A stretch of 64,000 bases of DNA from Breznakibacter xylanolyticus (GTDB lineage Bacteria > Bacteroidota > Bacteroidia > Bacteroidales > Marinilabiliaceae), in NCBI RefSeq assembly GCF_003254275.1, contig NZ_QKZK01000009.1, forward strand, positions 58,424 to 122,423, written 5' to 3'. Positions within the stretch are counted from its first letter, which is position 1, and each line of letters opens with the position of its first letter. The notes below the pieces were generated by a model. That model was not told the origin of the DNA and did no database searches. It was given only the letters and a program-made list of their open reading frames with translations. Shown piece by piece: positions 553 to 15,156 of the stretch. The translations under genes and the position numbers were made by a program.

Positions 553-3500
553 ATGATACAGAAGAGATTTCCAAAACCGCAGGGGTTATACGACCCTGCG
601 AATGAGCACGACAACTGTGGGATTGGGTTTGTAGCCAATATCAAAGGGGTCAAAACGCACGACATTGTACAGCGCGGGTTAGAAGTGCTGGTTAACATGA
701 CCCATCGTGGCGCGGAGAGTTCGGACAATAAGTCGGGTGACGGTGCCGGTATTCTCATGCAAGTGCCCCACGAACTCTGTGCTTCGTTTGGGTTTAATCT
801 CCCTGCGCCCGGGCAATATGCCACCGGGTTGTTGTTCTTGCCTAAGGGTGAGAAAGACGCAGCTGCTTGTCAGGATATCCTGAGTAAACACATTGTGAAC
901 GAGGGTCTCGAACTGATCGGTTTTCGCGATGTGCCGGTCGACAGTACCGTGATTGGCGAGATTGCCGGTCGCACCGAGCCGACGATTCGTCAGGTGTTTG
1001 TTAAGGGCAATTATGAGCAGGATACGCTTGAGCGCAAGCTCTATATCACGCGCAAGCTCACCGAGTCGGAAGTGCGCAACAGTGCCATTGCCGACAAGGA
1101 GTGTTTTTACATTCCCAGCTTGTCATCCAAGATTTTTATTTACAAAGGGATGTTGACCCCCGATCAGGTGGGACAGTATTACCTCGATTTGCAAAATCCG
1201 AAACTCAAGAGTGCCATCGCCCTGGTGCACTCGCGTTTCAGTACCAATACTTTCCCCACGTGGGATTTGGCGCAGCCGTTCCGTATCATGGCGCACAACG
1301 GTGAAATTAACACCGTGAAGGGGAACCGCCTGTGGATGCAAGCTCGTGAAGGTTTGCTGCAGAGCGACCTGTTTGGTGACGATTTGGCCAAGATTTTCCC
1401 CATTATCGAACCCAACAAAAGTGACTCGGCTTCGCTCGATAACGTGCTCGAGTTTTTGTTCCTCACCGGCCGCACGCTGCCCCACGCGCTCACCATGCTT
1501 ATTCCCGAGAGCTGGAACAGCAAGAACCCCATTCCGCAAAGCCTCAAGGCCTATTATGAGTTCCACTCGTCCATCATGGAGCCTTGGGATGGTCCGGCGT
1601 CTATCGTTTTTTCCGATGGCCGTTACATTGGTGGCACGCTCGACCGCAACGGGTTGCGTCCTTCGCGTTACATCATCACCAAAAACGACATGATTGTGAT
1701 GGGTTCTGAGGTGGGTGTTCAAACATTTGCCGCCGAAGAGATTCGTGAAAAAGGTCGTCTTCGTCCCGGTAAATTGTTGCTCGTTGACACTCAGCTTGGC
1801 ATCATCATCCCCGATGAGGAAATCAAAGCGCAGTTGTCGCGTCAGCATCCTTACGAAAACTGGCTCAAAGAGAACCGCATCAAACTGCAGGACATCGAAG
1901 CCAAGCAAAACGTGGATGCAGCCCTGGGCGAAAACTTCGAGACATACCTGAAAGCCTTTGGTTATGGCCGCGAGGACTTCAATACCATCATTGCTCCCAT
2001 GGCCGAAACGGCTCAGGAGCCGGTGGGTTCGATGGGGAACGATACCCCCATTGCCGCTTTTTCTGAAAAGCCACAGCGCTTGTTTAGCTATTTCCGTCAG
2101 TTGTTTGCTCAGGTGACCAACCCGCCCATCGACCCCATTCGTGAGGGCTTAGTGATGGCGTTGACCAACTACATCGGGTCGGTATCGAAAAATATTCTCG
2201 TTGAACAACCCTCGCACTGCAAGTCGGTGAAGTTCGAGAGCCCCATCATCACCAATACCGATTTGGGCAAAATCAAGGACTATCGCCGCGATGAGTTCAA
2301 GCATGCCATCATCCCCATGTTGTTCCCTGTTGCGCAGGGTGGCAAGGGGCTCGAAAGTGCGCTGGAGCACATGTGCCAGTTGGCCGAGCAGGCGGTTGAC
2401 AACCAAAGTAACTATATCATCCTTTCCGATCGCGAGATTTCGGAAAACATGGCTGCAGTGCCTTCATTGCTGGCCGTGTCGGCAGTGCACCACCATTTGA
2501 TTCGTGCCAAGAAGCGCATGCAGGTGGGCATCATTGTTGAGACAGCCGAAGCCCGCGAGGTGATGCACTTTGCCCTGTTGCTGGGTTATGGTGCCAGCGT
2601 CATCAATCCTTACGGCGCTTTTGCCGTGATTGACGAGATGGTGAAAAAAGGCGACATTAAAGTCGATTACAAAGAGGCGCGTTATAACTATATCAAATCT
2701 ATCGACAAAGGCTTGCTGAAAGTGATGTCGAAAATGGGTATCAGTACCCTGCGCAGTTACCATGGTGCTCAAATGTTCGAGGCCGTTGGGATTGCCAGCG
2801 ATGTGATTGGGAAATATTTTGCCGGTACGTCGTCGAAAATCGAAGGCGTTGGCTTTGACGAGATTGCTGCCGAGGCGGCCATCTTCCATAAGGCGGCGTT
2901 CTCTGGTCAGTCGTGGAGCAGCTTCCTGGAGACTCAGGGGGCTTATGCCTTCCGCAAGTATGGCGAAAAGCACGGCTGGAACCCCGAAACCATTGGGTTG
3001 CTGCAATGGGCTTCGTCGCAAAACGACTATGCCAAGTTCAAGGAGTTTTCGAAACGCGTGAACGAAGATAACCAAACGCCTCTGTTTATTCGTGGTTTCT
3101 TCCGTTTGAAAGAGGGTCGTCAGCCCATCGACATCAGCCAGGTGGAGCCCGAAGAGGCCATCATGAAACGTTTCGTGACCGGCGCCATGTCGTATGGTTC
3201 TATCTCTAAGGAGGCGCACGAGGCACTGGCCATGGCCATGAACAGCATTGGCGGCCGTAGCAATACCGGTGAAGGTGGCGAGGATGCCGAGCGTTTCAAA
3301 ACCAATGCCCGCAGTGCCATCAAGCAGATTGCGTCGGGTCGTTTTGGTGTGACCAACAATTATTTGGTGAATGCCGATGAGCTTCAGATCAAGATTGCTC
3401 AGGGTGCCAAGCCCGGCGAAGGTGGTCAGTTGCCCGGTTTCAAGGTGGATAAAATCATTGCCCGTTTGCGTAATTCAACGCCCGGCATTACCCTGATTTC

Positions 3501-5076
3501 ACCCCCTCCTCACCACGATATTTATTCTATTGAAGATTTGGCGCAGCTCATCTTCGACCTCAAATGTACCAACCCGACGGCTCGCATCAGCGTGAAACTG
3601 GTGTCGGAAACCGGTGTGGGAACCGTTGCGGCCGGTGTGGCCAAAGCTTATGCCGACCTGATTGTGATCAGCGGTACCGAAGGAGGTACGGGTGCCAGCC
3701 CCATCAGTTCTATTAAACACGCCGGGATGCCGGTTGAAATTGGTCTCTCCGAAACTCAGCAAACGCTGGTGATGAATAACCTGCGCGGTCGAGTGAAAAT
3801 TCAGACTGACGGTCAGCTTAAAACCGGTTTGGATGTGATTAAGATGGCCATCCTGGGTGGCGAGGAGTTTGGTTTTGCTACCAGCGCCCTCATTACACTG
3901 GGTTGTATCATGATGCGTAAGTGTCACCTCAATACCTGTCCGGCCGGTGTGGCCACTCAGGACGAGGCGTTGCGCAAGCGTTTCATTGGTCGTCACGAGT
4001 ATGTGGTGAATTTCTTCCGTTTCATTGCCCGCGAAGTTCGCGAGTACCTGGCTCAGATGGGTTACACCAAGCTCGACGACATCATTGGCCGTACCGAGTT
4101 GCTCGAACAGGATCCTACCGTGGGTAACTGGAAAACCCAGGGCATCAACATGGCTCGTTTGCTCCACTTCCCCGAAGAGGGCAAAAAATATCCGCTCATC
4201 AACACCACGACTCAAAAGCACAAAATTGAGGATGTGATGGATCATGAGCTCATCAAAATGTCCAAAGATGCCATCGATAGCCAAACCAAAGTATGGATGG
4301 CCAAGAATATCGGCAACACCGATCGTACCGTGGGTGCGATGCTTTCGGGTGTGATCTCTAAAAAATATGGCGAAGCGGGTTTGCCCAATAATACGGTGAA
4401 CTGCAACTTCTACGGTTCCGCAGGCCAGAGTTTCGGTGCCTTCCTGGTGAAAGGGGTGACTTTCCGTTTGGAAGGTGATGCCAACGACTACCTGGGTAAA
4501 GGCCTCAGTGGTGGTAAAATCATTGTGGTGCCTCCGGTTGGTTCAACGTTCAAGCCCGAGGATAACATCATTGTGGGTAACACGCTATTGTATGGTGCCA
4601 CCAGTGGTAGTGTGTATGTGCGAGGTGTGGCCGGTGAGCGTTTTGCCGTGCGTAACTCTGGTGCAACTGCTGTTGTAGAAGGCGTGGGTGACCACTGTTG
4701 TGAATACATGACCGGCGGTCGTGTGGTGGTGATTGGTAAGACGGGTCGTAACTTCGCGGCGGGTATGAGTGGCGGTATTGCCTATGTGCTCGACGAAGCC
4801 GGTAACTTCGATTACTATTGCAACCAGGGCTTGGTTGAACTCTCTAAAGTAGAAGATTCGGCCGACGTGCATGAGCTTCAGGAGATGTTGCACAAGCACC
4901 TGCTGCATACCACCAGCTCGAAGGCTCAGGAAATTTTGGTGAACTGGAGTATGTATCTGCCCAAGTTTGTGAAAGTGATTCCTTTTGAATACAAAAAGGT
5001 GTTGCAGGAACAAAAAATTAAGGAATTGGAGCAGAAACTTCGTGAAACCGAAGATGCGCCTTATATCAGAGAGTAG
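553..5076 (+). CDS. gltB: Glutamate synthase large subunit
   Basis: This is the large (alpha) subunit of glutamate synthase. It hydrolyses glutamine and transfers the ammonia to 2-oxoglutarate to make glutamate. At 1507 residues it has the normal length. A short propeptide precedes Cys22 (context DNCGIGF), the expected N-terminal nucleophile of the class II amidotransferase domain. The central and FMN-binding synthase domains follow, and the 3Fe-4S ligands are visible as Cys1118, Cys1124 and Cys1129 (CIMMRKCHLNTC). The C-terminal GXGXG-type beta-helix is present with repeated glycine-rich strands (about 1270-1480). gltD follows after 127 bases, so the two are probably cotranscribed. Confidence 0.97.
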   Translation: MIQKRFPKPQGLYDPANEHDNCGIGFVANIKGVKTHDIVQRGLEVLVNMTHRGAESSDNKSGDGAGILMQVPHELCASFGFNLPAPGQYATGLLFLPKGEKDAAACQDILSKHIVNEGLELIGFRDVPVDSTVIGEIAGRTEPTIRQVFVKGNYEQDTLERKLYITRKLTESEVRNSAIADKECFYIPSLSSKIFIYKGMLTPDQVGQYYLDLQNPKLKSAIALVHSRFSTNTFPTWDLAQPFRIMAHNGEINTVKGNRLWMQAREGLLQSDLFGDDLAKIFPIIEPNKSDSASLDNVLEFLFLTGRTLPHALTMLIPESWNSKNPIPQSLKAYYEFHSSIMEPWDGPASIVFSDGRYIGGTLDRNGLRPSRYIITKNDMIVMGSEVGVQTFAAEEIREKGRLRPGKLLLVDTQLGIIIPDEEIKAQLSRQHPYENWLKENRIKLQDIEAKQNVDAALGENFETYLKAFGYGREDFNTIIAPMAETAQEPVGSMGNDTPIAAFSEKPQRLFSYFRQLFAQVTNPPIDPIREGLVMALTNYIGSVSKNILVEQPSHCKSVKFESPIITNTDLGKIKDYRRDEFKHAIIPMLFPVAQGGKGLESALEHMCQLAEQAVDNQSNYIILSDREISENMAAVPSLLAVSAVHHHLIRAKKRMQVGIIVETAEAREVMHFALLLGYGASVINPYGAFAVIDEMVKKGDIKVDYKEARYNYIKSIDKGLLKVMSKMGISTLRSYHGAQMFEAVGIASDVIGKYFAGTSSKIEGVGFDEIAAEAAIFHKAAFSGQSWSSFLETQGAYAFRKYGEKHGWNPETIGLLQWASSQNDYAKFKEFSKRVNEDNQTPLFIRGFFRLKEGRQPIDISQVEPEEAIMKRFVTGAMSYGSISKEAHEALAMAMNSIGGRSNTGEGGEDAERFKTNARSAIKQIASGRFGVTNNYLVNADELQIKIAQGAKPGEGGQLPGFKVDKIIARLRNSTPGITLISPPPHHDIYSIEDLAQLIFDLKCTNPTARISVKLVSETGVGTVAAGVAKAYADLIVISGTEGGTGASPISSIKHAGMPVEIGLSETQQTLVMNNLRGRVKIQTDGQLKTGLDVIKMAILGGEEFGFATSALITLGCIMMRKCHLNTCPAGVATQDEALRKRFIGRHEYVVNFFRFIAREVREYLAQMGYTKLDDIIGRTELLEQDPTVGNWKTQGINMARLLHFPEEGKKYPLINTTTQKHKIEDVMDHELIKMSKDAIDSQTKVWMAKNIGNTDRTVGAMLSGVISKKYGEAGLPNNTVNCNFYGSAGQSFGAFLVKGVTFRLEGDANDYLGKGLSGGKIIVVPPVGSTFKPEDNIIVGNTLLYGATSGSVYVRGVAGERFAVRNSGATAVVEGVGDHCCEYMTGGRVVVIGKTGRNFAAGMSGGIAYVLDEAGNFDYYCNQGLVELSKVEDSADVHELQEMLHKHLLHTTSSKAQEILVNWSMYLPKFVKVIPFEYKKVLQEQKIKELEQKLRETEDAPYIRE

Positions 5077-5203
5077 TTTTATTGAGTGTTAACAATGAAT
5101 TTTGTGTCAAGTATCATGGCGTAAGTATCAAGTGTCAGGTGTCAAGATTATTTTGTGTCTTGATGCTTGCTACTAACGTCTTGCTACTAAAAAATATAGA
5201 ATC

Positions 5204-6625
5204 ATGGGAGATCCTAAAGGTTTTATGAAATTAGGCCGCAAAGAAGGTGGCTATCGTCCGGTGAGTGAGCGCATTGACGATTACGGTGAAGTAGAGCAGA
5301 CCCTGAATGATAACGACCGTCGCGAACAGGCGTCGCGATGCATGGATTGCGGGATTCCGTTTTGCCACTGGGCATGTCCCGTGGGCAGTAAAATTCCCGA
5401 GTGGCAGGATGCCTTGTATCGTGGCAACTACAAGCTGGCCAGTGAAATTTTGCATTCGACCAACAGTTTTCCCGAGTTTACGGGTCGCGTGTGTCCGCAT
5501 CCCTGTGAGAAATCGTGTGTGCTGGCCATTCATCACGAAGGGGTGACCATTCGCGAGAATGAAGCGGCCACTGTGGAGAAGGCCTTTGAACTGGGTTACA
5601 TTGTACCCCGCATTCCCCAAGTGCGCACCGGTAAAAAGGTGGCTGTGATTGGTGGTGGACCTGCCGGTTTGTCGGCTGCCGATGTGCTTAATCAAATGGG
5701 GCATTCGGTGACCGTGTTTGAGAAGGACGATGTGGTGGGCGGTTTGCTCCGTTACGGCATTCCTGATTTCAAACTGAATAAAAAGGTCATCGACCGCCGA
5801 ATCAATCTCTTCGTGCAGGAGGGCATTGAGTTTAAAACCAACTGCCATGTGGGTGTTGATGTGAAAGGCGAGGAGTTGTTAAAGAACTTCGATGCTGTGG
5901 TGGTGACCATCGGAGCCATGAAACCTCGCGATTTACCTGTTGAAGGCCGCGATTTGAAAGGGGTTTATTTTGCCATGGAATTCCTCAAGCAGCAAAATAA
6001 AGTGGTGCGTGGCGATGAATTCAGCGCCGAAGAACGCATCAATGCCAAAGGCAAAAATGTATTGGTGATTGGGGGTGGTGATACCGGTAGTGATTGTGTT
6101 GGAACCTCGAACCGTCAAAAGGCCAAGAGCGTGATGCAGATTGAGATTTTGCCCAAACCTCCCGTTGAGCGTGCTGCTAACAATCCTTGGCCTTACTGGC
6201 CCACGGTGCTCAAAACTTCCTCGTCGCACGAAGAAGGTTGCGCCCGCGAATGGAATGTGTCGACCAAGCGCTTCATTGGCGAAAACGGCGTGCTCAAGCA
6301 GGTTGAACTGGTGGACGTGGAGTGGAGCAAAGGCGACAACGGCCAGTGGGTGATGAGCGAAAAAGCCGGCTCGAACCGCATTCTGGATGTGGATTTGGTA
6401 TTGCTCTCCATGGGCTTTGTGCATCCCATTCACGAAGGCTTGGTGGCTGAGTTGGGTCTTGAGAAAGATGGCCGCGGTAACGTGAAAATCGATGCTCAAT
6501 ATCAAACCAGCGTGGCCAAGGTATTTGCTGCCGGAGATGCCGCTTCGGGCGCGAGCCTGGTGGTAACATCCATCAACAACGGACGTCGTGCTGCCGAAAA
6601 TGTGGATGCATTCCTGAAGAAGTAA
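5204..6625 (+). CDS. gltD: Glutamate synthase small subunit
   Basis: This is the small (beta) subunit, which passes electrons from NAD(P)H through FAD and 4Fe-4S clusters to GltB. It has the usual 473 residues. The N-terminal half holds the cysteine-rich cluster region (CMDCGIPFCHWACP, then VCPHPCEKSC). A first dinucleotide fold VIGGGPAGLSAAD binds FAD, and a second fold VIGGGDTGSDC binds the pyridine nucleotide. The C-terminal FAD motif AAGDAASG is also seen. The spacer after gltB (5077-5203) contains short direct repeats such as CTTGCTACTAA twice and reads like degenerate repeat sequence rather than a gene. Confidence 0.97.
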   Translation: MGDPKGFMKLGRKEGGYRPVSERIDDYGEVEQTLNDNDRREQASRCMDCGIPFCHWACPVGSKIPEWQDALYRGNYKLASEILHSTNSFPEFTGRVCPHPCEKSCVLAIHHEGVTIRENEAATVEKAFELGYIVPRIPQVRTGKKVAVIGGGPAGLSAADVLNQMGHSVTVFEKDDVVGGLLRYGIPDFKLNKKVIDRRINLFVQEGIEFKTNCHVGVDVKGEELLKNFDAVVVTIGAMKPRDLPVEGRDLKGVYFAMEFLKQQNKVVRGDEFSAEERINAKGKNVLVIGGGDTGSDCVGTSNRQKAKSVMQIEILPKPPVERAANNPWPYWPTVLKTSSSHEEGCAREWNVSTKRFIGENGVLKQVELVDVEWSKGDNGQWVMSEKAGSNRILDVDLVLLSMGFVHPIHEGLVAELGLEKDGRGNVKIDAQYQTSVAKVFAAGDAASGASLVVTSINNGRRAAENVDAFLKK

Positions 6626-6752
6626 GTTTTCTTGTTATAACACGTTGATATGAGTTGCCCCGGCTTTGGTCGGGGCAATTCTGTTTTTGGATGAGTTGCT
6701 CATTAAAAGGTGTGCGTTTTTGTGGTTGGTTGAAAAAAAGTCATTCATGTTA

Positions 6753-6783
6753 TTTGATAATTAAAAAGCTTTTTCTAAACTTG
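6753..6783 (+). promoter_or_regulatory. trp operon promoter (Bacteroidetes type)
   Basis: TTTG at 6753-6756 is followed, after exactly 19 bases, by TAAACTTG at 6776-6783. This fits the Bacteroidetes primary sigma consensus TTTG-N19-21-TAnnTTTG with one mismatch. Predicted transcription starts near 6790, about 12 bases before the Trp-rich leader peptide. That is the placement expected for an attenuator leader. Confidence 0.75.
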
Positions 6784-6802
6784 CAACATCGAAAAATAAA
6801 CA

Positions 6803-6865
6803 ATGAAAACATTGATGAACAATATTTGGTGGTGGCACAGCAATTCATTCCAAACCCGGATGTGA
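6803..6865 (+). CDS. trpL: trp operon leader peptide (three Trp codons)
   Basis: This 20-codon open reading frame encodes MKTLMNNIWWWHSNSFQTRM and ends in TGA. Codons 9-11 are three consecutive TGG, a strong signal given how rare Trp is. It lies between a predicted promoter and an intrinsic terminator, directly upstream of trpE. By analogy with enterobacterial trpL, ribosome stalling at the Trp codons when Trp-tRNA is scarce would favour an antiterminator and let transcription enter trpE. GTGGC over the Trp codons (6832-6836) can pair with GCCAC (6872-6876), a plausible 1:2 stem. The antiterminator pairing was not resolved by eye. Confidence 0.88.
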   Translation: MKTLMNNIWWWHSNSFQTRM

Positions 6866-6897
6866 AGCGACGCCACGTACCTCAACAATAAGATACA

Positions 6898-6932
6898 AAA
6901 AGGCTTGCCGATAACATCGGCAGGCCTTTTTT
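6898..6932 (+). terminator. trp attenuator terminator
   Basis: This is a 14-base-pair stem, AAAAGGCTTGCCGA (6898-6911) against TCGGCAGGCCTTTT (6917-6930), with one G-U pair. The loop is TAACA and a run of six T follows. It lies 32 bases after the leader-peptide stop and about 35 bases before trpE, so it would abort transcription before trpE unless an alternative fold disrupts it. Confidence 0.9.
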
Positions 6933-6966
6933 GATTTTAAACCCAAGCACATAAAAAACTAACGAT

Positions 6967-8382
6967 ATGAAGATTGTTCAAATTAACCCCTTGTGTACCA
7001 AATTGTCGCCCGGAGTGTCCGATGTCATTACGCCGGTGAGCATTTACATGAAAATGCGTGACATTTATCCCAATACCATTTTATTGGAGAGTTCTGATTA
7101 TCATGGGAATCGAAATTCCATGTCGTTCATTTGTTTTCAGGCCGACGGCGAGTTTAAAGTGCAAAATGGCACCGTGACGCGGCAGATGCCCGGCGAGGAG
7201 GCCGAAACGTTTGTGCCTGCATCGCCGCAGGAAGTTCCCATGCTCCTCGATGGGTATGTTCGCTCGTTTCAGGTTCAGAACAACCATTTGCCAGTAAAAA
7301 TCAATGGTTTATTCGGATATTCGGCTTACGATGCGGTGCAGTATTTCGAAACCATTCGTCTGAAAACCCCACGTAAGGATGAATATAGCATTCCCGATTT
7401 GCGTTACGTCTTTTATCGCAATACCATCGCCATCAATCATTTTACCAATCAGATGTATTTAATCGAGAATCTGCACAACGGGCATGAGTCGCAGTTTCGC
7501 TGGGTGATGAACGTGTTGCACAATCCCAACAACCCCGATTTTAAGTTTGTTCCTTCCACAGAGGAGAAATCCAACGTCACCAATGAGCAGTTTATCGAGA
7601 TGGTGAAGAAGGGTAAAGAGCATTGCTTTAAGGGCGATGTGTTTCAGATTGTGCTCTCGCGTCAGTTCTCACGCGGGTTTACAGGTGATGAATTTAATGT
7701 GTATCGTGCTTTGCGCAACATCAATCCATCGCCTTATCTCTTCTTTTTCGATTATGGCGATTACAAAATCTTTGGTTCATCGCCCGAGGCTCAGCTTGTG
7801 ATTGACGACGGCGTGGCCACCATTAACCCCATTGCGGGAACCTTTAAACGTACCGGTGATGACCTCAAGGATAAAGAGTTGGCTGTGAAGCTCAGCCTCG
7901 ATCCCAAGGAAAATGCCGAGCACGTGATGTTGGTCGATCTGGCACGCAACGATTTGAGCCGCAATTGCAACCAGGTGAAGGTGCATACGTTTAAAGAGGT
8001 TCAGTATTACTCGCATGTGCTTCACCTGGTGAGCGATGTAAAGGGACAGCTCAAGGCAGGTTCAAACACCTGTCGCATCATGGCCGACACGTTTCCAGCC
8101 GGAACACTTTCTGGAGCGCCCAAATTTAAGGCCATGGAACTCATTGATGCCTACGAAAATCAGCACCGTAGTTTTTATGGCGGGTGCATCGGTTATTTAG
8201 GCTTTGATGGGAATTTTAATCAGGCCATCACCATTCGCACGTTTTTGAGTAAAAACAACACCCTGTTTTATCAGGCCGGTGCCGGGGTGGTGTCGCAGTC
8301 TGATGAGGAGAGCGAACTCAATGAGGTGAACAACAAGCTGGGAGCTTTGAAAAAAGCGGTTGAAATGGCTGCCGAGTTTTAA
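6967..8382 (+). CDS. trpE: Anthranilate synthase component I
   Basis: TrpE makes anthranilate from chorismate with ammonia supplied by TrpG, the first committed step to tryptophan. It has 471 residues, typical of the family. The N-terminal regulatory motif LLESSDYHGNRNS matches the LLES element that binds feedback-inhibiting Trp. The chorismate-binding core is clear: GSSPEAQL, NPIAGTFKRTG, DLARNDLSR, PAGTLSGAPKFKAME, YGGCIGYLGFDGN and YQAGAGVVSQSDEESE. Together with the upstream attenuator this predicts two layers of Trp control, on enzyme activity and on transcription. Confidence 0.97.
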   Translation: MKIVQINPLCTKLSPGVSDVITPVSIYMKMRDIYPNTILLESSDYHGNRNSMSFICFQADGEFKVQNGTVTRQMPGEEAETFVPASPQEVPMLLDGYVRSFQVQNNHLPVKINGLFGYSAYDAVQYFETIRLKTPRKDEYSIPDLRYVFYRNTIAINHFTNQMYLIENLHNGHESQFRWVMNVLHNPNNPDFKFVPSTEEKSNVTNEQFIEMVKKGKEHCFKGDVFQIVLSRQFSRGFTGDEFNVYRALRNINPSPYLFFFDYGDYKIFGSSPEAQLVIDDGVATINPIAGTFKRTGDDLKDKELAVKLSLDPKENAEHVMLVDLARNDLSRNCNQVKVHTFKEVQYYSHVLHLVSDVKGQLKAGSNTCRIMADTFPAGTLSGAPKFKAMELIDAYENQHRSFYGGCIGYLGFDGNFNQAITIRTFLSKNNTLFYQAGAGVVSQSDEESELNEVNNKLGALKKAVEMAAEF

Positions 8383-8491: not shown

Positions 8492-9061
8492 ATGAAAATA
8501 TTAGTCTTAGATAATTACGATTCGTTTACCTACAACATTGTGCATTATGTCGAAGAATTGGTAAACGACAAGGTGGATGTGTTTCGCAACGACGAAATAT
8601 CCATCGAAAAGGTGGGTGAATACGATAAAATCATCCTTTCGCCCGGTCCCGGAGTGCCCGACGAAGCCGGTCTTCTGAAGCAAGTGATTGCCACGTATGG
8701 TCCTTCTAAAAGTATTTTTGGAGTGTGCCTGGGTTGTCAGGCCATTGGCGAAGTGTTTGGGGGCAGCATTCGAAACCTCAATCGGGTGTTTCACGGGGTG
8801 GCCACGCCGGTAACGATCATCAACCGCGATGAATATCTGTTTGACGGGCTTCCCGATACTTTTATGGCCGGTCGTTACCACTCGTGGGTGGTAAATGAAG
8901 AAGACTTGCCCGCCGAGTTGCTCATCACCATCCGCGATGCCGAGGGGCAAATCATGGGGCTGATGCACCGCGATTATGACGTGCGCGGTGTGCAATTTCA
9001 CCCCGAGAGTATCCTTACGGAGCATGGTAAGGATATGATAAAGAATTGGTTGATGCATTGA
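8492..9061 (+). CDS. trpG: Anthranilate synthase component II (glutamine amidotransferase)
   Basis: This is a 189-residue class I amidotransferase that hydrolyses glutamine and channels ammonia to TrpE. The N-terminal LDNYDSFTYN, the oxyanion region SPGPGVPDEAG, the nucleophile in GVCLGCQAIGE and the His-Glu pair in VQFHPESILTEHG are all present. The same type of subunit serves PabB in some bacteria, but its place between trpE and trpD argues for tryptophan synthesis. About 140 bases of T/A-rich spacer with no clear gene separate it from trpD. Confidence 0.95.
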   Translation: MKILVLDNYDSFTYNIVHYVEELVNDKVDVFRNDEISIEKVGEYDKIILSPGPGVPDEAGLLKQVIATYGPSKSIFGVCLGCQAIGEVFGGSIRNLNRVFHGVATPVTIINRDEYLFDGLPDTFMAGRYHSWVVNEEDLPAELLITIRDAEGQIMGLMHRDYDVRGVQFHPESILTEHGKDMIKNWLMH

Positions 9062-9204
9062 TTTTTAATTTATCTCTTTGCGGTGGATGCTTTAGTGTGC
9101 TACTGCGATGAGGACTGTTTATTCTTGTAGGAAATTATCTATTGAGTTTGCCTCCGGTTACTCCCGTTGGGAGATGGGGGACTCGATTTTAAAAATAATA
9201 AGCT

Positions 9205-10197
9205 ATGTTGCAACCCATATTGAAACGGCTGTTTAATTACGATACCCTTGGGCGCGATGAAGCCTGCCGGGTGCTCATGGACATTGCCGGAGAGAAGTAC
9301 AACAAGTCGGAGGTGGTGGCCTTTATGACGGTTTATCTGATGCGAAACGTGACCGTAGAGGAGCTTTCCGGGTTTCGCGATGCGCTGTTGGAAATGTGCC
9401 TGCGTGTGGATATGAGCGATTTCAACACCATTGACATGTGCGGCACAGGTGGGGATGGGAAAAATACGTTCAACATTTCTACACTGGCCTCACTGGTGGT
9501 GGCCGGTGCGGGCGTGAAAGTGGTCAAGCACGGCAATTACGGGGTTTCCTCGTCGTGCGGGTCGTCGAATGTGATGGAGTACATGGGGTACCGGTTTACC
9601 GGGGATCGCGATACATTGAATCGCCAGATTGATCAGGCCGGTATTTGCTTTTTGCATGCGCCGCTGTTCAATCCGGCCATGAAGAGCATTGCGCCTATTC
9701 GCAAAGAGTTGGGGGTGAAGACGTTCTTCAATATGCTGGGGCCAATGGTGAATCCCTCTTTTCCGCAAAACCAGTTGGTGGGGGTGTTTAGTTTGGAGCT
9801 GGCGCGGATGTACAACTACATCTACCAGCAAACCACTAAAAACTATGCTATTTTGCACAGTCTTGATGGTTACGATGAGGTGTCGCTAACCAGTCCCTTT
9901 AAGGCCATCTTTCGTTCGGGCGAGCGCCTGATGACGGCTGCTGATTTGAACATGAAGACGCTGCGTCAGGAAGATATTTTTGGCGGAAACACCATTCCCG
10001 AAGCGGCTGCCATTTTTACCACTGTGTTGGATGGCAACGGAACCGACGCCCAAAACAATGTGGTATTGGCCAATGCCTCTATGGCCATTCATTGTGTGCA
10101 TGCCGAAAAGGAAATGGACATTTGTTTGGAGATGGCACGCGAGTCGCTCATGAGTGGCAAGGCCAAGTTGGCTCTCAAACGCTTGATTGAAGCATAG
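9205..10197 (+). CDS. trpD: Anthranilate phosphoribosyltransferase
   Basis: TrpD transfers phosphoribose from PRPP to anthranilate. Its 330 residues match the family. The N-terminal helical domain is followed by the PRPP/anthranilate signature CGTGGDGKNTFNIST and the glycine- and serine-rich KHGNYGVSSSCGSSNV. The later NMLGPMVNP and YDEVSLT motifs fit the C-terminal half. It is a stand-alone enzyme, not fused to TrpG. Confidence 0.96.
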   Translation: MLQPILKRLFNYDTLGRDEACRVLMDIAGEKYNKSEVVAFMTVYLMRNVTVEELSGFRDALLEMCLRVDMSDFNTIDMCGTGGDGKNTFNISTLASLVVAGAGVKVVKHGNYGVSSSCGSSNVMEYMGYRFTGDRDTLNRQIDQAGICFLHAPLFNPAMKSIAPIRKELGVKTFFNMLGPMVNPSFPQNQLVGVFSLELARMYNYIYQQTTKNYAILHSLDGYDEVSLTSPFKAIFRSGERLMTAADLNMKTLRQEDIFGGNTIPEAAAIFTTVLDGNGTDAQNNVVLANASMAIHCVHAEKEMDICLEMARESLMSGKAKLALKRLIEA

Positions 10198-10254
10198 TAT
10201 TTATGAAACCTGCAAGGCTGTGAAGCCTTTAATGAATTGGATAATCAATAAGAC

Positions 10255-11037
10255 ATGACCATACTCGATAAAATCATTGCCCGCAAAAAAGAGGAAGTGG
10301 CAGCTGCCAAGGCGGCAGTCTCCATCAAAGATTTAGAGGATTCCAAGTATTTTGAGCTGGATTGCCCCTCGCTCAAGGCCTTTTTGCAAGACCCCGCCAA
10401 GACCGGTATCATTGCTGAGTTTAAGCGCCAATCGCCCTCCAAGGGCATCATTAACGACACCGCTCTGGTGCCCGATGTGACTCGTGGTTACGAGGCTGCC
10501 GGTGCTTCGGGCATTTCCATCCTTACCGATACTGATTTTTTTGGCGGCTGTTATGCCGATTTGTCGCTGGGGCGCGACTCGGTGGAGATCCCCATTCTTC
10601 GCAAGGATTTTATGATTGACACTTATCAGGTGTATGAAGCCAAGTCGATGGGGGCAAGCGCCATTTTGCTGATTGCCGCCGTGCTCACCGATGCCCGTGC
10701 CCGCGAACTGGGCTCCCTGGCCAAAGCCATGGGCATGGACGTGCTCATGGAGGTCCACAACCGCGAAGAACTTGACCTGGTGAATCATTATGTGGATATT
10801 GTGGGGGTGAACAATCGCGACCTCAAGACCTTTGAAGTGAGCCTCGAAAACAGTGTCAAGCTGGCTTCATACATGCCTGCCGATACTGTGAAAATCAGCG
10901 AGAGCGGCATTTATACCGTCGAAGATATTCGCTATCTGCGTTCTCATGGTTTTCAGGGGTTTCTCATTGGTGAGAATTTTATGCGCGAAGCAGATCCGGG
11001 TAAGGCCTGTGTTGAATTCAGCGCTAAGTTGAGATAG
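10255..11037 (+). CDS. trpC: Indole-3-glycerol-phosphate synthase
   Basis: This 260-residue TIM-barrel enzyme closes the indole ring from CdRP. Diagnostic segments are IIARKKEEV at the N-terminus, IAEFKRQSPSKG, LRKDFMIDTYQVYEAK, MEVHNREELD, GVNNRDLKTF, ISESGI and GFLIGENFM. It is monofunctional, with TrpF encoded separately downstream after about 230 bases. That spacer contains a perfect palindrome and a CGCAGAG-type repeat. Confidence 0.96.
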   Translation: MTILDKIIARKKEEVAAAKAAVSIKDLEDSKYFELDCPSLKAFLQDPAKTGIIAEFKRQSPSKGIINDTALVPDVTRGYEAAGASGISILTDTDFFGGCYADLSLGRDSVEIPILRKDFMIDTYQVYEAKSMGASAILLIAAVLTDARARELGSLAKAMGMDVLMEVHNREELDLVNHYVDIVGVNNRDLKTFEVSLENSVKLASYMPADTVKISESGIYTVEDIRYLRSHGFQGFLIGENFMREADPGKACVEFSAKLR

Positions 11038-11121
11038 GTTCGAACGCAGAGACGCCATGACGCAGAGATGTGTTGATTCTGCATTGTGATCGTCATGTAG
11101 GTTAAATGGGCACGTTGTTTC

Positions 11122-11154
11122 AAACCTTTCAGGTCTTCAAGACCTGAAAGGTTT
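11122..11154. repeat. Intergenic palindrome, AAACCTT family, copy 1
   Basis: AAACCTTTCAGGTCTT and AAGACCTGAAAGGTTT form a perfect 16-base-pair inverted repeat around a single C. A closely related palindrome lies at 37701-37733, and a degenerate version may lie near 10205-10232. There is no T tract, so it is more likely a dispersed intergenic repeat than a terminator. Confidence 0.75.
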
Positions 11155-11270
11155 CAGCCTCATGCCGGCCTATTATCCGATTGTGAGTACGATTACAAAT
11201 CCGCGCCAGCGAAAAAGTTATATAACTATAAGCACCTTTGTGTTTTAGTGTTTATTAAAATTTTTATGTG

Positions 11271-11906
11271 ATGAAAATTAAAGTGTGCGGCATGCGCGAC
11301 GCCGATAATATTCGGCAGCTATTAGCGCTTAACCCCGATTATGTCGGTTTTATCTTTTATCCGCCTTCATTGCGATACGTGGGGGGCGATTTCCCTGTTG
11401 AAGTGTCGGCATTGGTGACGGGCGCCAAAAAGGTGGGGGTGTTTGTGGATGCCGATTTTGCCGATATGCGCGAGATCATCTTTCATCACAAGCTCGATGC
11501 CGTGCAGCTGCATGGCAAGGAAACCCCCGGTGAATGCTGGCTGCACCGCTCCTTAGGGCTGACGGTTATCAAGGCTTTTGCCATTGACGAGCAGTTCGAT
11601 TTTTCGGTGCTGGAACCTTACGTCGATGCGGTTGATTATTTCCTTTTCGACACCAAAACTCCGCAGCATGGCGGCAGTGGGGTGAAGTTCAATTGGGACA
11701 TTCTGAAAAATTATAACAATGCCAAACCCGTGTTTTTGAGCGGGGGCATTGGTGAGGATGACGTGGCGGCTATCCGCGCGTTGACACATCTCGATATTCA
11801 TGCCGTGGATGTGAACAGCCGTTTTGAGGTATCTCCCGGGGTGAAGGACGTGGATAAGTTGAAGCGTTTTTTTGATCAAATAAAACAGACATCATGGGAC
11901 AGGTGA
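11271..11906 (+). CDS. trpF: Phosphoribosylanthranilate isomerase
   Basis: TrpF catalyses the Amadori rearrangement of PRA to CdRP. The 211-residue product is a TIM barrel with KVCGMRDADNI (catalytic Cys), VGFIFYPPSLRYV, VGVFVDADFADM, VQLHGKETP, LFDTKTPQHGGSG and FLSGGIGEDD with the following DVNSRFEVSPGVKD. I chose ATG 11271 over the adjacent in-frame GTG 11268. Its last 13 bases overlap the next gene, suggesting translational coupling. Confidence 0.95.
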   Translation: MKIKVCGMRDADNIRQLLALNPDYVGFIFYPPSLRYVGGDFPVEVSALVTGAKKVGVFVDADFADMREIIFHHKLDAVQLHGKETPGECWLHRSLGLTVIKAFAIDEQFDFSVLEPYVDAVDYFLFDTKTPQHGGSGVKFNWDILKNYNNAKPVFLSGGIGEDDVAAIRALTHLDIHAVDVNSRFEVSPGVKDVDKLKRFFDQIKQTSWDR

Positions 11907-12283
11907 AAATTTATGGGTTGGCCAAGGCATTGGATGACCATCGAACCGAAATATCCGATGTGATTCATTCATGCGTGACCGAGGCCTTGAAATTTCCTGC
12001 CGACAAGCGGTTTCATCGCTTTTTTCCCATGCAACCGTGTGATTTCATTTATCCTGCCGGTCGTTCTGACCGTTATGTGATTGTGGAAATACACCTGTTT
12101 GAAGGGCGAAGTGTCGATGCCAAAAAGATGTTTTATCGACTGATGTACCAACGGTTCAATGCCCTATTGGGGGTAGATGCAACCGATTTGGAGATCATCT
12201 TCATCGAAACTCCACGTCATAACTGGGGTATTCGTGGTGTTGCCGGTGATGAGCTGGTGGTTGACTATCAGGTGAATGTGTGA
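11894..12283 (+). CDS. Tautomerase-family protein
   Basis: This 129-residue protein resembles the Tautomerase_2 group of the 4-oxalocrotonate tautomerase/MSAD superfamily. The matching segments are KIYGL at the start, PADKRFHRFFPM, DFIYPAGRSDRY, IHLFEGRSVDAKK, and the tail ETPRHNWGIRGVAGDEL. The residue after Met is Gly, so the catalytic Pro1 of classical tautomerases is absent unless the start is wrong. Its start codon lies inside trpF, so it is translated with the trp genes. Its substrate is unknown. A link to indole or anthranilate chemistry is only suggested by position. Confidence 0.75.
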   Translation: MGQVKIYGLAKALDDHRTEISDVIHSCVTEALKFPADKRFHRFFPMQPCDFIYPAGRSDRYVIVEIHLFEGRSVDAKKMFYRLMYQRFNALLGVDATDLEIIFIETPRHNWGIRGVAGDELVVDYQVNV

Positions 12284-12373
12284 AAGTAAGACAGTCTTAT
12301 TTATCCTCTTTCAAAATTATTGACCGACACCGAGATATCTTATTGTGAATGTATAACGGGGGCGATTATCATT

Positions 12374-12381
12374 TAATTTTG
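12374..12381 (+). promoter_or_regulatory. Possible internal promoter before trpB
   Basis: TAATTTTG is a perfect TAnnTTTG match about 45 bases upstream of trpB, in a 142-base spacer. No good -33 TTTG is seen. The spacer also contains a short perfect palindrome, TAAGACAGTCTTA (12287-12299), just after the tautomerase stop. It may allow trpB, the methyltransferase gene and trpA to be transcribed apart from the attenuated upstream genes. Confidence 0.35.
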
Positions 12382-12425
12382 CCGTCGCCTTCACCATCAT
12401 TTTATTAATATTTTACCCTATTATC

Positions 12426-13610
12426 ATGTCTAAATATCACGCAGACCAGCGAGGCCGCTACGGGAAGTTCGGTGGGGCATATATCCCCGAGATGTTGCAA
12501 CCCAACATCGACGACCTTAATGAACGATATCTTCCGATTATCAATTCCCAAGCGTTTCAGGATGAGTACAAAAGCCTGTTGAAGGATTACGTGGGACGCC
12601 CGTCGCCCCTTTATTACGCCAAGCGGTTGTCGGAGAAATATCATACCAATGTTTATCTCAAGCGCGAAGATCTCAATCACACCGGGGCTCACAAAATCAA
12701 CAATGCCATTGGTCAGATTCTGATTGCCAAAAAAATGGGCAAAAACCGCATCATTGCCGAAACCGGTGCCGGCCAACATGGTGTGGCCACTGCCACGGCT
12801 TGCGCCCTGATGGGGATGCAGTGCGTGGTGTACATGGGTGAGGTGGACATTCAGCGTCAGGCGCCCAACGTGGCGCGTATGAAGATGTTGGGTGCCGAAG
12901 TACGACCTGCACTTTCTGGTAGCAAAACGCTCAAAGATGCCACCAACGAGGCTTTGCGCGACTGGATTTGCAACCCCACCGATACATTTTACCTCATTGG
13001 TTCTGTGGTGGGGCCGCATCCTTATCCCGATATGGTGGCTCGTTTACAGGCTGTTATCAGTCATGAGATTCGTGAGCAAATGTTGGAGAAAACCGGGACC
13101 CCCAATCCCGATTACGTCATTGCGTGCGTGGGAGGCGGTAGTAACGCAGCCGGCACGTTTTACCATTTTCTCGATGAAGAAGGTGTGCGTTTGGTGGCTG
13201 TTGAGGCCGCCGGAATGGGCGTCGATTCGGGCGAAACGGCAGCAACCATTGCTTTGGGTGATGTGGGCATCATTCATGGGAGCAAAACGTATCTGATTCA
13301 GGACGAAGATGGGCAAATTGTGGAGCCTTACTCCATTTCGGCCGGTCTCGATTATCCCGGTATTGGCCCCCAACATGCTCATTTGAAGGACACCGGGCGT
13401 GCCATCTTTTTGTCGGCCACTGATCAGGATGCTTTGGATGCTGCCCTTGAATTGACCCGCCTCGAAGGCATCATTCCTGCGCTTGAGTCGGCCCACGCTT
13501 TGTCCGCTCTGCGTAAAATGACCTTTCAGCCATCCGATAAAGTGGTCATCACCGTGTCGGGTCGTGGCGATAAGGATATGGAAACATATATGAAACGCTT
13601 TCAATTATAA
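12426..13610 (+). CDS. trpB: Tryptophan synthase beta subunit
   Basis: TrpB condenses indole with serine in a PLP-dependent reaction. The 394-residue sequence has the normal length for TrpB1. The PLP lysine lies in [10 protein letters not shown], and [13 protein letters not shown], the [10 protein letters not shown] phosphate-binding loop and the C-terminal LSGRGDKD-like segment ([10 protein letters not shown]) are present. In many Bacteroidetes trpB heads the operon. Here it follows trpF and is separated from trpA by a methyltransferase gene. Confidence 0.97.
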
Positions 13611-13666
13611 TCGACACCCCTCAGCGGGCGCCGTCTTACTTTGTGTATATTCATCAAAACCAGACG

Positions 13667-14383
13667 ATGTCAATACCTTCTGCCGCGCAACCATCCATAC
13701 AACTGGAAGGAACCATTCCCCTAGGGCGCAATATTCGGGAGTATGAACTGATGTTTAACTTATGGTCGATGCGGGATACGGTCACATACCTTGATTGTGG
13801 AGCCGGCCCCGCGTCGTTCAATGCCGAAATGACGGTTCGTGGTCGCAGGGTGGTATCTGTGGATCCGCTTTACGAACTCTGTAGGGCAGATTTGGCAGAA
13901 CGCGTGGAGTCTGCGTTACCCGGCATCATTGCGCAGGTGAGTGCTGCCCGACATTTGTATCGATGGGATATGCATGGTTCTCCCGAGCGGTTATCGCAAT
14001 CGCGGGGAGAGTCGGCTCAGCATTTCCTGGCCGATTACGATCAGGGGCGTCACGATGGGCGATACGTGGCAGCATCGTTGCCGCAGTTACCCTTTGCCGA
14101 TGAGTCGTTTGATGTGGCCGTTTGTTCGCACTTGTTGTTCTTGTATAGCAAGGTGTTTGATGCCGGTTTTCACATCGATGCCATTCGTGAATTGTTGCGA
14201 GTAGCGACCGAGGTGCGCATCTTTCCCTTGTGTGATCTTAATGGGGAGGTGTCGCCCCATTTGCGTGAGGTGGTGAAAACGTTACGAAAGGAGCGCTGCC
14301 ATACGCAAATTATTAATGTACCTTATGAATTTCAGCGGGGAGTGAATCAGTGTTTGCTCATCCGCAAAAAACGTTCGTTATGA
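13667..14383 (+). CDS. SAM-dependent methyltransferase (class I fold), trpB-trpA interloper
   Basis: This protein of about 238 residues has a SAM-binding motif I, LDCGAGPASFNAEM, followed by an acidic ribose-binding strand end (VVSVDP). It later has LPFADESFDVAVCSHLLFLY, typical of Methyltransf_11-like motif II-III regions. I prefer ATG 13667 to the upstream in-frame GTG 13643. The stop codon overlaps the trpA start as ATGA, so it is translationally coupled to trpA. The target is not evident; an indole or tryptophan derivative, or an unrelated housekeeping target, are both possible. Confidence 0.75.
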   Translation: MSIPSAAQPSIQLEGTIPLGRNIREYELMFNLWSMRDTVTYLDCGAGPASFNAEMTVRGRRVVSVDPLYELCRADLAERVESALPGIIAQVSAARHLYRWDMHGSPERLSQSRGESAQHFLADYDQGRHDGRYVAASLPQLPFADESFDVAVCSHLLFLYSKVFDAGFHIDAIRELLRVATEVRIFPLCDLNGEVSPHLREVVKTLRKERCHTQIINVPYEFQRGVNQCLLIRKKRSL

Positions 14384-15156
14384 CAAATCGCATTCAACAG
14401 CTTTTTCAGCAAAAAAAAGATATTCTTTCGGTTTATTTTACGGCCGGTTACCCCACACTCAACGATACGGTTCGCATCCTGCAGGCGCTCGAGAAATCGG
14501 GTGTTGACCTGGTGGAGATTGGGATGCCTTTTAGCGATCCTTTGGCCGATGGTCCGACCATTCAGGCCAGTAGTCTGGTGGCGCTTAACAATGGTATGAC
14601 CATAAAAGTGCTTTTTGAGCAACTGGTTCATATTCGCAAAAGTGTGACCATTCCTTTGGTGTTGATGGGGTATGTGAATCCGGTGCATAAGTACGGCATC
14701 GAAGCGTTTATCGCCAAGTGTGCCGAAGTTGGGGTGGATGGTGTGATTATCCCCGATTTGCCTTTTAATGAGTATCTTGATGATTACAAGCCTACGTTCG
14801 ATGGTGCGGGGGTGGCCAATATCAACCTGATCACGCCACAGACGCCCGAGTCGCGCATTCGCCTGATTGACGAAAATACCAACAGCTTCATCTACATGGT
14901 GTCGTCGGCAGCTGTTACCGGAGCCAAAAAGGGGTTGGCACCCGAGCAGATTGCCTATTTTGAGCGCATCAACGCCATGAAACTGAAGAATCCCACGCTG
15001 ATCGGTTTTGGCATCAGCGACCGTGAATCATTTTTGCAAACCTGCAAGCATGCTTCCGGAGCCATTGTGGGCAGTGCTTTTGTGAAAATGATTGGGGAAT
15101 CCCCAAATCTTGAATCGGATATCGAAACGTTTGTAAATAACATTAAACGAGGCTAA
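14380..15156 (+). CDS. trpA: Tryptophan synthase alpha subunit
   Basis: TrpA releases indole from indole-3-glycerol phosphate for TrpB. The product has 258 residues from ATG 14380, which overlaps the preceding stop codon. Motifs include YFTAGYP, the catalytic Glu in LVEIGMPFSDPLADGP, VLMGYVNP, GVIIPDLPFNE (catalytic Asp), YMVSSAAVTGAK and GFGISDRES. It ends the trp block; a long hairpin follows. Confidence 0.96.
   Translation: MTNRIQQLFQQKKDILSVYFTAGYPTLNDTVRILQALEKSGVDLVEIGMPFSDPLADGPTIQASSLVALNNGMTIKVLFEQLVHIRKSVTIPLVLMGYVNPVHKYGIEAFIAKCAEVGVDGVIIPDLPFNEYLDDYKPTFDGAGVANINLITPQTPESRIRLIDENTNSFIYMVSSAAVTGAKKGLAPEQIAYFERINAMKLKNPTLIGFGISDRESFLQTCKHASGAIVGSAFVKMIGESPNLESDIETFVNNIKRG

Follow-up and report, generated by a model that had tools for sequence, protein, structure and literature searches.

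A putative ribosome-mediated attenuator of the trp operon in Breznakibacter xylanolyticus and candidate antiterminator pairing in related trp leaders

Gene Neighborhood and Leader Region of the trp Operon

The window, i.e. the whole stretch of 64,000 nucleotides of Breznakibacter xylanolyticus DNA that was analyzed, contains a trp operon whose features are collected in Table 1. Direct reading of window 6500-7300 gave, in this order, gltD, a terminator-like hairpin, and the trp unit. gltD matched PF14691 and PF07992, and upstream of it lies a gene which, from its sequence, we take to be gltB. The gltB- and gltD-like genes (glutamate synthase) occupy 553-6625, directly upstream of the trp operon. 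The putative terminator at 6655-6688 sets gltD apart from the trp unit. Within the operon, a Tautomerase_2 (PF14552) gene (11894-12283) overlaps the end of trpF, and a methyltransferase-like gene (13643-14383) sits between trpB and trpA.

An earlier sequence-only reading had pointed to a 20-codon leader with three consecutive TGG codons upstream of trpE, and precisely this ORF was found. The hairpin and the T run of the terminator described in the same reading are also present, but its stem, given there as 14 bp, comprises 16 bp with one G-U pair. The leader stop codon is separated from trpE by 101 nt, with the terminator in between. Both tandem regulatory codons in a leader ORF and an intrinsic terminator before trpE are present as sequence features. 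The region 6785-6935 folded with -48.3 kcal/mol (z = -6.38), and none of 200 shuffled sequences was equally good. Specificity was evaluated with the 43 ATG-initiated ORFs of 8-45 codons in the window, both strands included, that contain W.?W. The trp leader was the only one of these 43 short ORFs followed by a strong terminator, with a following-hairpin score of 37.5 compared with 13.5 for the next best.

A Bacteroidetes promoter at proper spacing had likewise been claimed, and plausible Bacteroidota promoter boxes were indeed read: TTTG (6753-6756) and TAAACTTG (6776-6783) are 19 nt apart. The transcription start is predicted at 6788-6789, 4-5 nt past the -7-like box. In Flavobacterium johnsoniae, many transcription starts lie 4-5 nt past the -7 element according to the accessible part of PMC6847099, and from this spacing a 5' UTR of 14-15 nt is predicted for the window leader.

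Table 1. Features of the trp leader region and the trp operon in window coordinates
Feature	Position	Strand	Basis
Terminator-like hairpin with T-rich tail, 3' of gltD (TTGCCCCG / CGGGGCAA)	6655..6688	+	Sequence reading
-33-like promoter element TTTG	6753..6756	+	Sequence reading; consensus quoted in PMC7366714 (accessible part)
-7-like promoter element TAAACTTG, one mismatch to TAnnTTTG	6776..6783	+	Sequence reading
Leader peptide ORF MKTLMNNIWWWHSNSFQTRM, 20 codons, without Shine-Dalgarno sequence, ATG at 6803 to TGA ending at 6865	6803..6865	+	Sequence reading
Three consecutive Trp codons TGG TGG TGG, predicted ribosome stall site	6827..6835	+	Sequence; close Trp codons in relatives
Predicted local hairpin, 6844-6851 with 6858-6866, hiding the leader end without ribosome cover	6844..6866	+	Folding
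Candidate antiterminator, outer strand: leader end plus the initial stop-codon base; predicted 7-bp helix with 6914-6920, including one bulge	6856..6863	+	Folding; counterpart in relatives comparative
Candidate antiterminator, inner strand: just past the stop codon; predicted 7-bp helix with 6902-6908, including one bulge	6867..6874	+	Folding only
Intrinsic terminator with arms at 6897-6912 (ascending) and 6916-6931 (descending) around the loop 6913-6915; T run as far as 6932	6897..6932	+	Sequence, folding
trpE, first structural gene	6967..8382	+	PF04715, PF00425
Remainder of the unit: trpG, trpD, trpC, trpF, Tautomerase_2 gene, trpB, methyltransferase-like gene, trpA	8492..15156	+	Pfam

trp Leaders in Related Genomes

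A TrpE query yielded the best 80 named loci and 30 loci from the family to which the window belongs, two sets that overlap (e.g. L003 and L087 share one leader). The nearest named relatives were Plebeiobacterium, Labilibacter, Carboxylicivirga, and other Marinilabiliaceae-type records. One locus, L106, came without upstream sequence. Altogether 71 family genomes were searched, six of which were unreadable (two contig ends and four without a trpE-like match). The 65 readable genomes consist of 29 loci whose upstream sequence was available, one of them the window locus, and 36 further genomes. A check for conserved Trp codons upstream of trpE in relatives came out in favor of the sequence-only reading that had suggested it: all 65, the window's own included, possess a leader in which two or more Trp codons are neighbors or have a single codon between them. 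WW occurs in 62 and WWW in 43 of these leaders, while the peptide outside the Trp run varies widely. A terminator follows the leader stop codon after 25-49 nt in all 65 and after 19-40 nt in the named set.

Among the best 80 named loci, 63 (58 of them with WW) carry both leader and terminator no more than 500 nt from trpE. In another four, a WWW ORF lies ~1.3-1.4 kb upstream, in front of what appears to be trpB. No Trp-pair leader was found in the remaining 13 of these 80 loci, which include the single-Trp locus L050, the cut contig L032, and loci in which a trpB-like upstream gene fills the flank; some of the 13 lack a leader because the contig or flank ends too soon. L151 (G058:C43 58900-63150) has two WWW leaders upstream of trpE, MQTYILNSNWWWRLRKHNS and MQTLVLNNNWWWRLRKHNS, separated by ~3.8 kb, and both places match RF01692 just below the cut-off (46.9 and 48.7 bits). 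At G021:C178 32149-33557, trpE is split into two matches with an in-frame TAG in one and TAA in the other; the Trp leader of this genome (L136) looks intact despite the split trpE.

In an Rfam scan, the window leader was matched by RF01692 (Bacteroid-trp) with 31.5 bits, below the gathering score of 49. The alignment is full length (1-131 over 6783-6909) and spans the start codon, the UGG codons, and the AAAAAGGCUUG end, with many non-standard pairs. The consensus hairpin of RF01692 joins the Trp-codon region to the segment past the stop codon; in the window's own fold, 6828-6836 pairs with 6872-6881. Of the features of RF01692, the position upstream of trpE (6967) in a member of the Bacteroidota and the short WWW ORF were found in the window, and the cut-off was not reached. 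The cut-off was passed by one of the 71 family genomes (four of 71 matched at E <= 0.001 with stricter filters) and by six of 20 chosen loci, of which four were from Flavobacteriia-type records and two had the leader far upstream of trpE. None of the proteobacterial amino acid leader families in Rfam reached its gathering score, Thr_leader (RF00506), with 23.7 of 55 bits, being the only one among the matches listed. Trp leader families other than RF01692 gave no match at E <= 1 to the window leader. The leader was found in all readable family genomes and in 67 of the best 80 named Bacteroidota loci, well past the reach of the Rfam cut-off.

RF01692 originates from Weinberg et al. 2010, where it is tabulated (PMC2864571, accessible part). 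Like the window element, it is a leader of trp genes in Bacteroidetes and aligns over its full length. However, the model ends inside the ascending arm of the terminator and thus lacks the loop and the descending arm, to which the leader end is matched here. As far as the accessible parts of the papers go, work on F. psychrophilum mentions Bacteroid-trp or proposes leader-peptide attenuation for amino acid operons (PMC6414381, PMC9723704). The leaders considered there, for trp and other amino acids, belong to the same phylum but to a different class, and no antiterminator pairing is described in these parts. Given RF01692 and the flavobacterial leaders, the kind of element is already known and not new. 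Among the matches listed in a literature search, no title or abstract opening dealt with the antiterminator of Bacteroidota trp leaders or with tandem trp leaders. An attenuation survey, Lopatovskaya et al. 2010, is cited in the accessible part of PMC4833913. In the accessible parts of the Bacteroidota papers examined, trp attenuation hardly goes beyond an entry in Rfam and a proposal.

How the start of the leader peptide is recognized had been raised as a point of interest. It looks like an ordinary Bacteroidota start, free of Shine-Dalgarno pairing and A-rich upstream, with an SD-like 4-mer in only three of 88 leaders; such starts agree with the published F. johnsoniae work (PMC6847099, accessible part). 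The first Trp codon lies 8 or 9 codons past the Met codon in 70 of the 88 leaders. The promoter boxes are also recognizable beyond the window: an exact TAnnTTTG within 60 nt was seen in 22 of 81 leaders (5.6 expected), and a relaxed AnnYTTG box within the last 32 nt in 53 of 82 (5.0 expected). The position of the -7-like box is bimodal, 17-26 nt before the ATG in 37/82 leaders and 5-8 nt before it in 17/82, with no box recognized in 27/82. A single box at 2 nt before the ATG (L025) was taken for chance. The boxes at 5-8 nt belong to L030, L037, L039, L042, L046-L049, L051, L057, L058, L060, L068, L069, L074, L076, and L079. From their spacing, these 17 leaders are predicted to start leaderless or near-leaderless mRNAs with 5' UTRs of ~0-4 nt. 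In the accessible parts of the respective papers, leaderless mRNAs account for 5.5% in F. psychrophilum (PMC9723704), 5' UTRs below 10 nt for ~3.7% in B. thetaiotaomicron (PMC7366714), and leaders not longer than 10 nt for 13% in F. johnsoniae (PMC6847099). Bacteroidota trp leaders are a place for studying leader-peptide starts without Shine-Dalgarno pairing.

Pairing of the Leader End with the Terminator

The leader end of each locus was paired, as a separate strand, with the terminator of every other locus, and matched combinations were compared with permuted ones. Out of 128 leaders, 47 representatives less than 75% similar in the paired regions were used, 17 of them from the family. The pairing set leaves out 17 of the 80 named loci, namely the 13 in which no Trp-pair leader was found and the four with a distal WWW ORF (L038, L052, L056, L065). 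With the terminator loop plus descending arm as the partner, the comparison gave -2.76 kcal/mol in favor of the matched combinations in the 47 representatives (z = -9.2), and none of 20,000 permutations was as good; this partner had been seen while reading the aligned leaders and was then tested on the same sequences, without an independent hold-out. With the ascending arm, the excess was 0.63 kcal/mol (n = 47, z = -2.3, p = 0.014). When only the 17 family representatives were considered, z was -5.4 for the loop plus descending arm and +1.0 for the ascending arm. Contiguous helices scoring at least 15 were formed with the loop plus descending arm in 51% of matched versus 9% of mismatched combinations, and with the ascending arm in 13% of both. 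The best helix was located at the stop codon in 27/47 representatives for the loop plus descending arm and in 15/47 for the ascending arm, compared with 7.4 expected. Examples of complementary leader ends are CGGGAAUUG with CAAUUCCCG in L092 and GUCGUGAG with CUCACGAC in L048.

The ascending arm as the sole partner of the leader was rejected. Dinucleotide shuffles of 85 leaders gave a mean z of -0.39, and a permutation test with 41 representatives (-0.74 kcal/mol, p = 0.009) was carried by six leaders of the ..GL type (p = 0.001); for nine family-like representatives, p was 0.50. A diagonal scan of the family in plain column alignment missed the pairing, because the terminator loops differ in length, and RNAalifold recovered the terminator alone from the family alignment. 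Once loops had been right-justified to the descending arm, the predicted register came out on top among 1211 in a score combining the fraction paired and double changes, with a fraction paired of 0.74 versus a mean of 0.36. This pattern suggests that the antiterminator is formed by the leader end at the stop codon pairing with the terminator loop and the first part of the descending arm. The sequence-only reading had suggested looking for an antiterminator competing with 6898-6911. Pairing with the ascending arm is predicted by folding, but an excess of matched over permuted pairing with this arm is absent from the family. The comparison instead proposes a specific antiterminator that can be mutated.

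Switching was modeled by partition-function folding of growing transcripts in which ribosome positions were masked. At least three expected pairs between leader and loop/descending arm appeared in 41/47 representatives with a stall at the second Trp codon, in 3/47 with the ribosome at the stop codon, and in 13/47 without a ribosome. At least four pairs between leader and ascending arm appeared in 47/47 under stall and in 15/47 with the ribosome at the stop codon. The 15 and the 13 representatives imply that the predicted switch is not clean everywhere. Under stall, loop/descending pairing exceeded ascending pairing in 11/47, the reverse applying to most. The predicted structures of seven relatives each consisted of one nested hairpin, with an outer helix between leader end and loop/descending arm and an inner helix between the post-stop segment and the ascending arm or nearby bases.

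In the window, the two-helix antiterminator was computed at -11.9 kcal/mol with exposure up to 6920, compared with -3.5 kcal/mol for the terminator top alone, and a structure that retained the local hairpin (6845-6851 x 6858-6865) was better still (-13.8 kcal/mol). The outer helix of the window is weak and bulged. Its 2.4 expected pairs (stall at the second Trp codon, 12-nt footprint) are the lowest value of the 17 family representatives and the fifth lowest of all 47. In the model, it forms with a stall at the third Trp codon and a footprint of at least 12 nt, at the second Trp codon and 15 nt, or further on, and such stalls put the ribosome over the 5' arm of the local hairpin. The terminator is favored at equilibrium from 6922 on. 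In full-length transcripts under stall, the terminator was at least 80% formed in 43/47 representatives and likewise in E. coli trpL, implying that antitermination would have to be kinetic, a race that we infer. For most relatives, these models predict an antiterminator that a stall would free and a ribosome at the stop codon would block; the form predicted for the window depends on stall position and footprint.

Six E. coli leaders (NC_000913; trpL, leuL, ilvL, hisL, pheL, thrL) were treated in the same way as the Bacteroidota leaders. trpL, leuL, ilvL, and hisL resemble the window in having a leader peptide and a terminator, and in the stall-freed antiterminator that is predicted for it. Their pairing, however, involves mainly the ascending arm, with 0.0, 0.4, 0.2, and 2.7 loop/descending pairs, respectively. 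The antiterminator of pheL also extends into the loop and descending arm (8.4 ascending and 8.5 loop/descending pairs), and that of thrL does so in part (9.0 and 4.8). These are single sequences from another lineage that serve another amino acid. The idea of a novel antiterminator topology was weakened by pheL and partly thrL reaching the same elements. The extension into loop and descending arm is thus not unique to Bacteroidota, and no new kind is claimed.

Proposed Mechanism, Competing Explanations, and a Distal Leader

Attenuation of the trp operon is a textbook control circuit. We consider it very probable, on sequence and modeling grounds, that the window element is a ribosome-mediated transcription attenuator acting as a supply-and-demand switch. 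The earlier suggestion that the ribosome-stalling logic of enterobacterial trpL operates here gains support from the comparison, namely from the leaders in 65/65 genomes, the terminators, and the stall-freed alternative pairing. Transcription would begin near 6788, and the SD-free leader peptide would be translated while RNA polymerase advances. With ample charged Trp-tRNA, the ribosome would reach the stop codon and cover 6856-6874, so that the terminator (6897-6931) forms and transcription stops near 6932. Under a shortage of charged Trp-tRNA, the ribosome would stall on the Trp codons and leave 6856-6874 free to pair with the terminator, the post-stop segment with the ascending arm and the leader end with the loop and the first part of the descending arm. 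Held by these two nested helices, the terminator hairpin would close too late, and polymerase would read into trpE. Without translation, the local hairpin is expected to hide the leader end, making termination the default in the window locus. The parts, their conservation, and the matched outer-helix pairing in relatives were observed in this analysis, and the switching was predicted; that the operon switches by attenuation in the cell, that the window locus uses the two-helix form, and that the antiterminator wins kinetically is what we infer.

Taking all loci together, we lean slightly toward a joint reading in which many Bacteroidota trp leaders use a two-part clamp, one peptide group has shifted its pairing, and Prolixibacteraceae-type genomes have added a leader. 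In the clamp, a segment on or beside the stop codon would capture the loop together with the initial bases of the descending arm and block hairpin nucleation, and the next segment would hold the ascending arm. The antiterminator would thereby coincide with the stop codon, making the terminating ribosome itself the off-switch. Leaders with peptides of the ..GL type or alike, several of them from Chitinophagaceae (Chitinophaga itself not among them), may have shifted to ascending-arm pairing. Prolixibacteraceae-type genomes appear to have gained another trp leader, of different design and located upstream of the usual one.

The antiterminator might also be of the classical form only, with the post-stop segment pairing with the ascending arm and the leader-end pairing being incidental in the window locus. 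The inner helix of the window is robust, with ~7 pairs between leader and ascending arm at 6918 under every stall tested, and ascending pairs under stall (at least four in 47/47) outnumber those with the loop/descending arm in most representatives. L044, L049, and L055 pair almost only with the ascending arm, and the best ascending helix falls at the stop codon twice as often as expected (15/47 versus 7.4). Despite these points, we hold the classical form to be rather unlikely, since ascending arms of the family matched no better than permuted ones (z = +1.0, versus -5.4 for the loop plus descending arm) and contiguous ascending helices were equally frequent in matched and mismatched combinations (13% each). 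Leader peptides can serve as nascent-chain sensors, as in the TnaC type, and Trp might be sensed here by a nascent arrest peptide or by a protein instead of by codon stalling; the wide variation of the peptide past the Trp run within the family makes this extremely unlikely. It is also very unlikely that a constitutive leader terminator merely sets a basal level, the peptide being a relic or a booster of translation by reinitiation. The hairpin is strong and wins at equilibrium, and reinitiation at leaders has been proposed generally (PMC4833913, accessible part), but close Trp codons are kept in 65/65 readable family genomes and are accompanied by matched alternative pairing. As for reinitiation, the 101 nt from leader stop codon to trpE, interrupted by the terminator, stand against a Bacteroidetes peak of 11-14 bp in the accessible part of that paper.

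The leader that the joint reading regards as added lies upstream of the WWW leader in Prolixibacteraceae-type loci. It was found upstream of trpE in L012, L014-L017, L021-L025, L027, L033-L036, and L159-L188. These 45 loci (30 plus 15 named ones) probably include some from the same organism. A near-invariant core of 28 nt, with at most three mismatches, was present in 56 of 120 sampled genomes of the family of G244, which we take to be Prolixibacteraceae, and in one of 295 genomes of the order sample. In counting the distal leaders, one of 16 regex matches, L059, was dropped as unrelated sequence. The distal unit gave no Rfam match at E <= 0.1 in the three loci scanned (L012, L017, L024). Tandem attenuators as such are known from Salmonella mgtCBR (PMC3641672, accessible part). 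The distal unit may represent either tandem trp attenuators or a structured RNA without a name. L033, L034, and L036 retain the core but have neither an in-frame ATG nor a clear terminator. An in-frame ORF, mostly encoding ..NTIWLPWWGLL.., was read in 42 of the 45 loci, and a following hairpin was scored in 42 of 45, weakly in L033. The 3' arm GCCATA was present in all 45, and a Trp-pair leader followed downstream of the distal unit in 27 of the 30 loci L159-L188.
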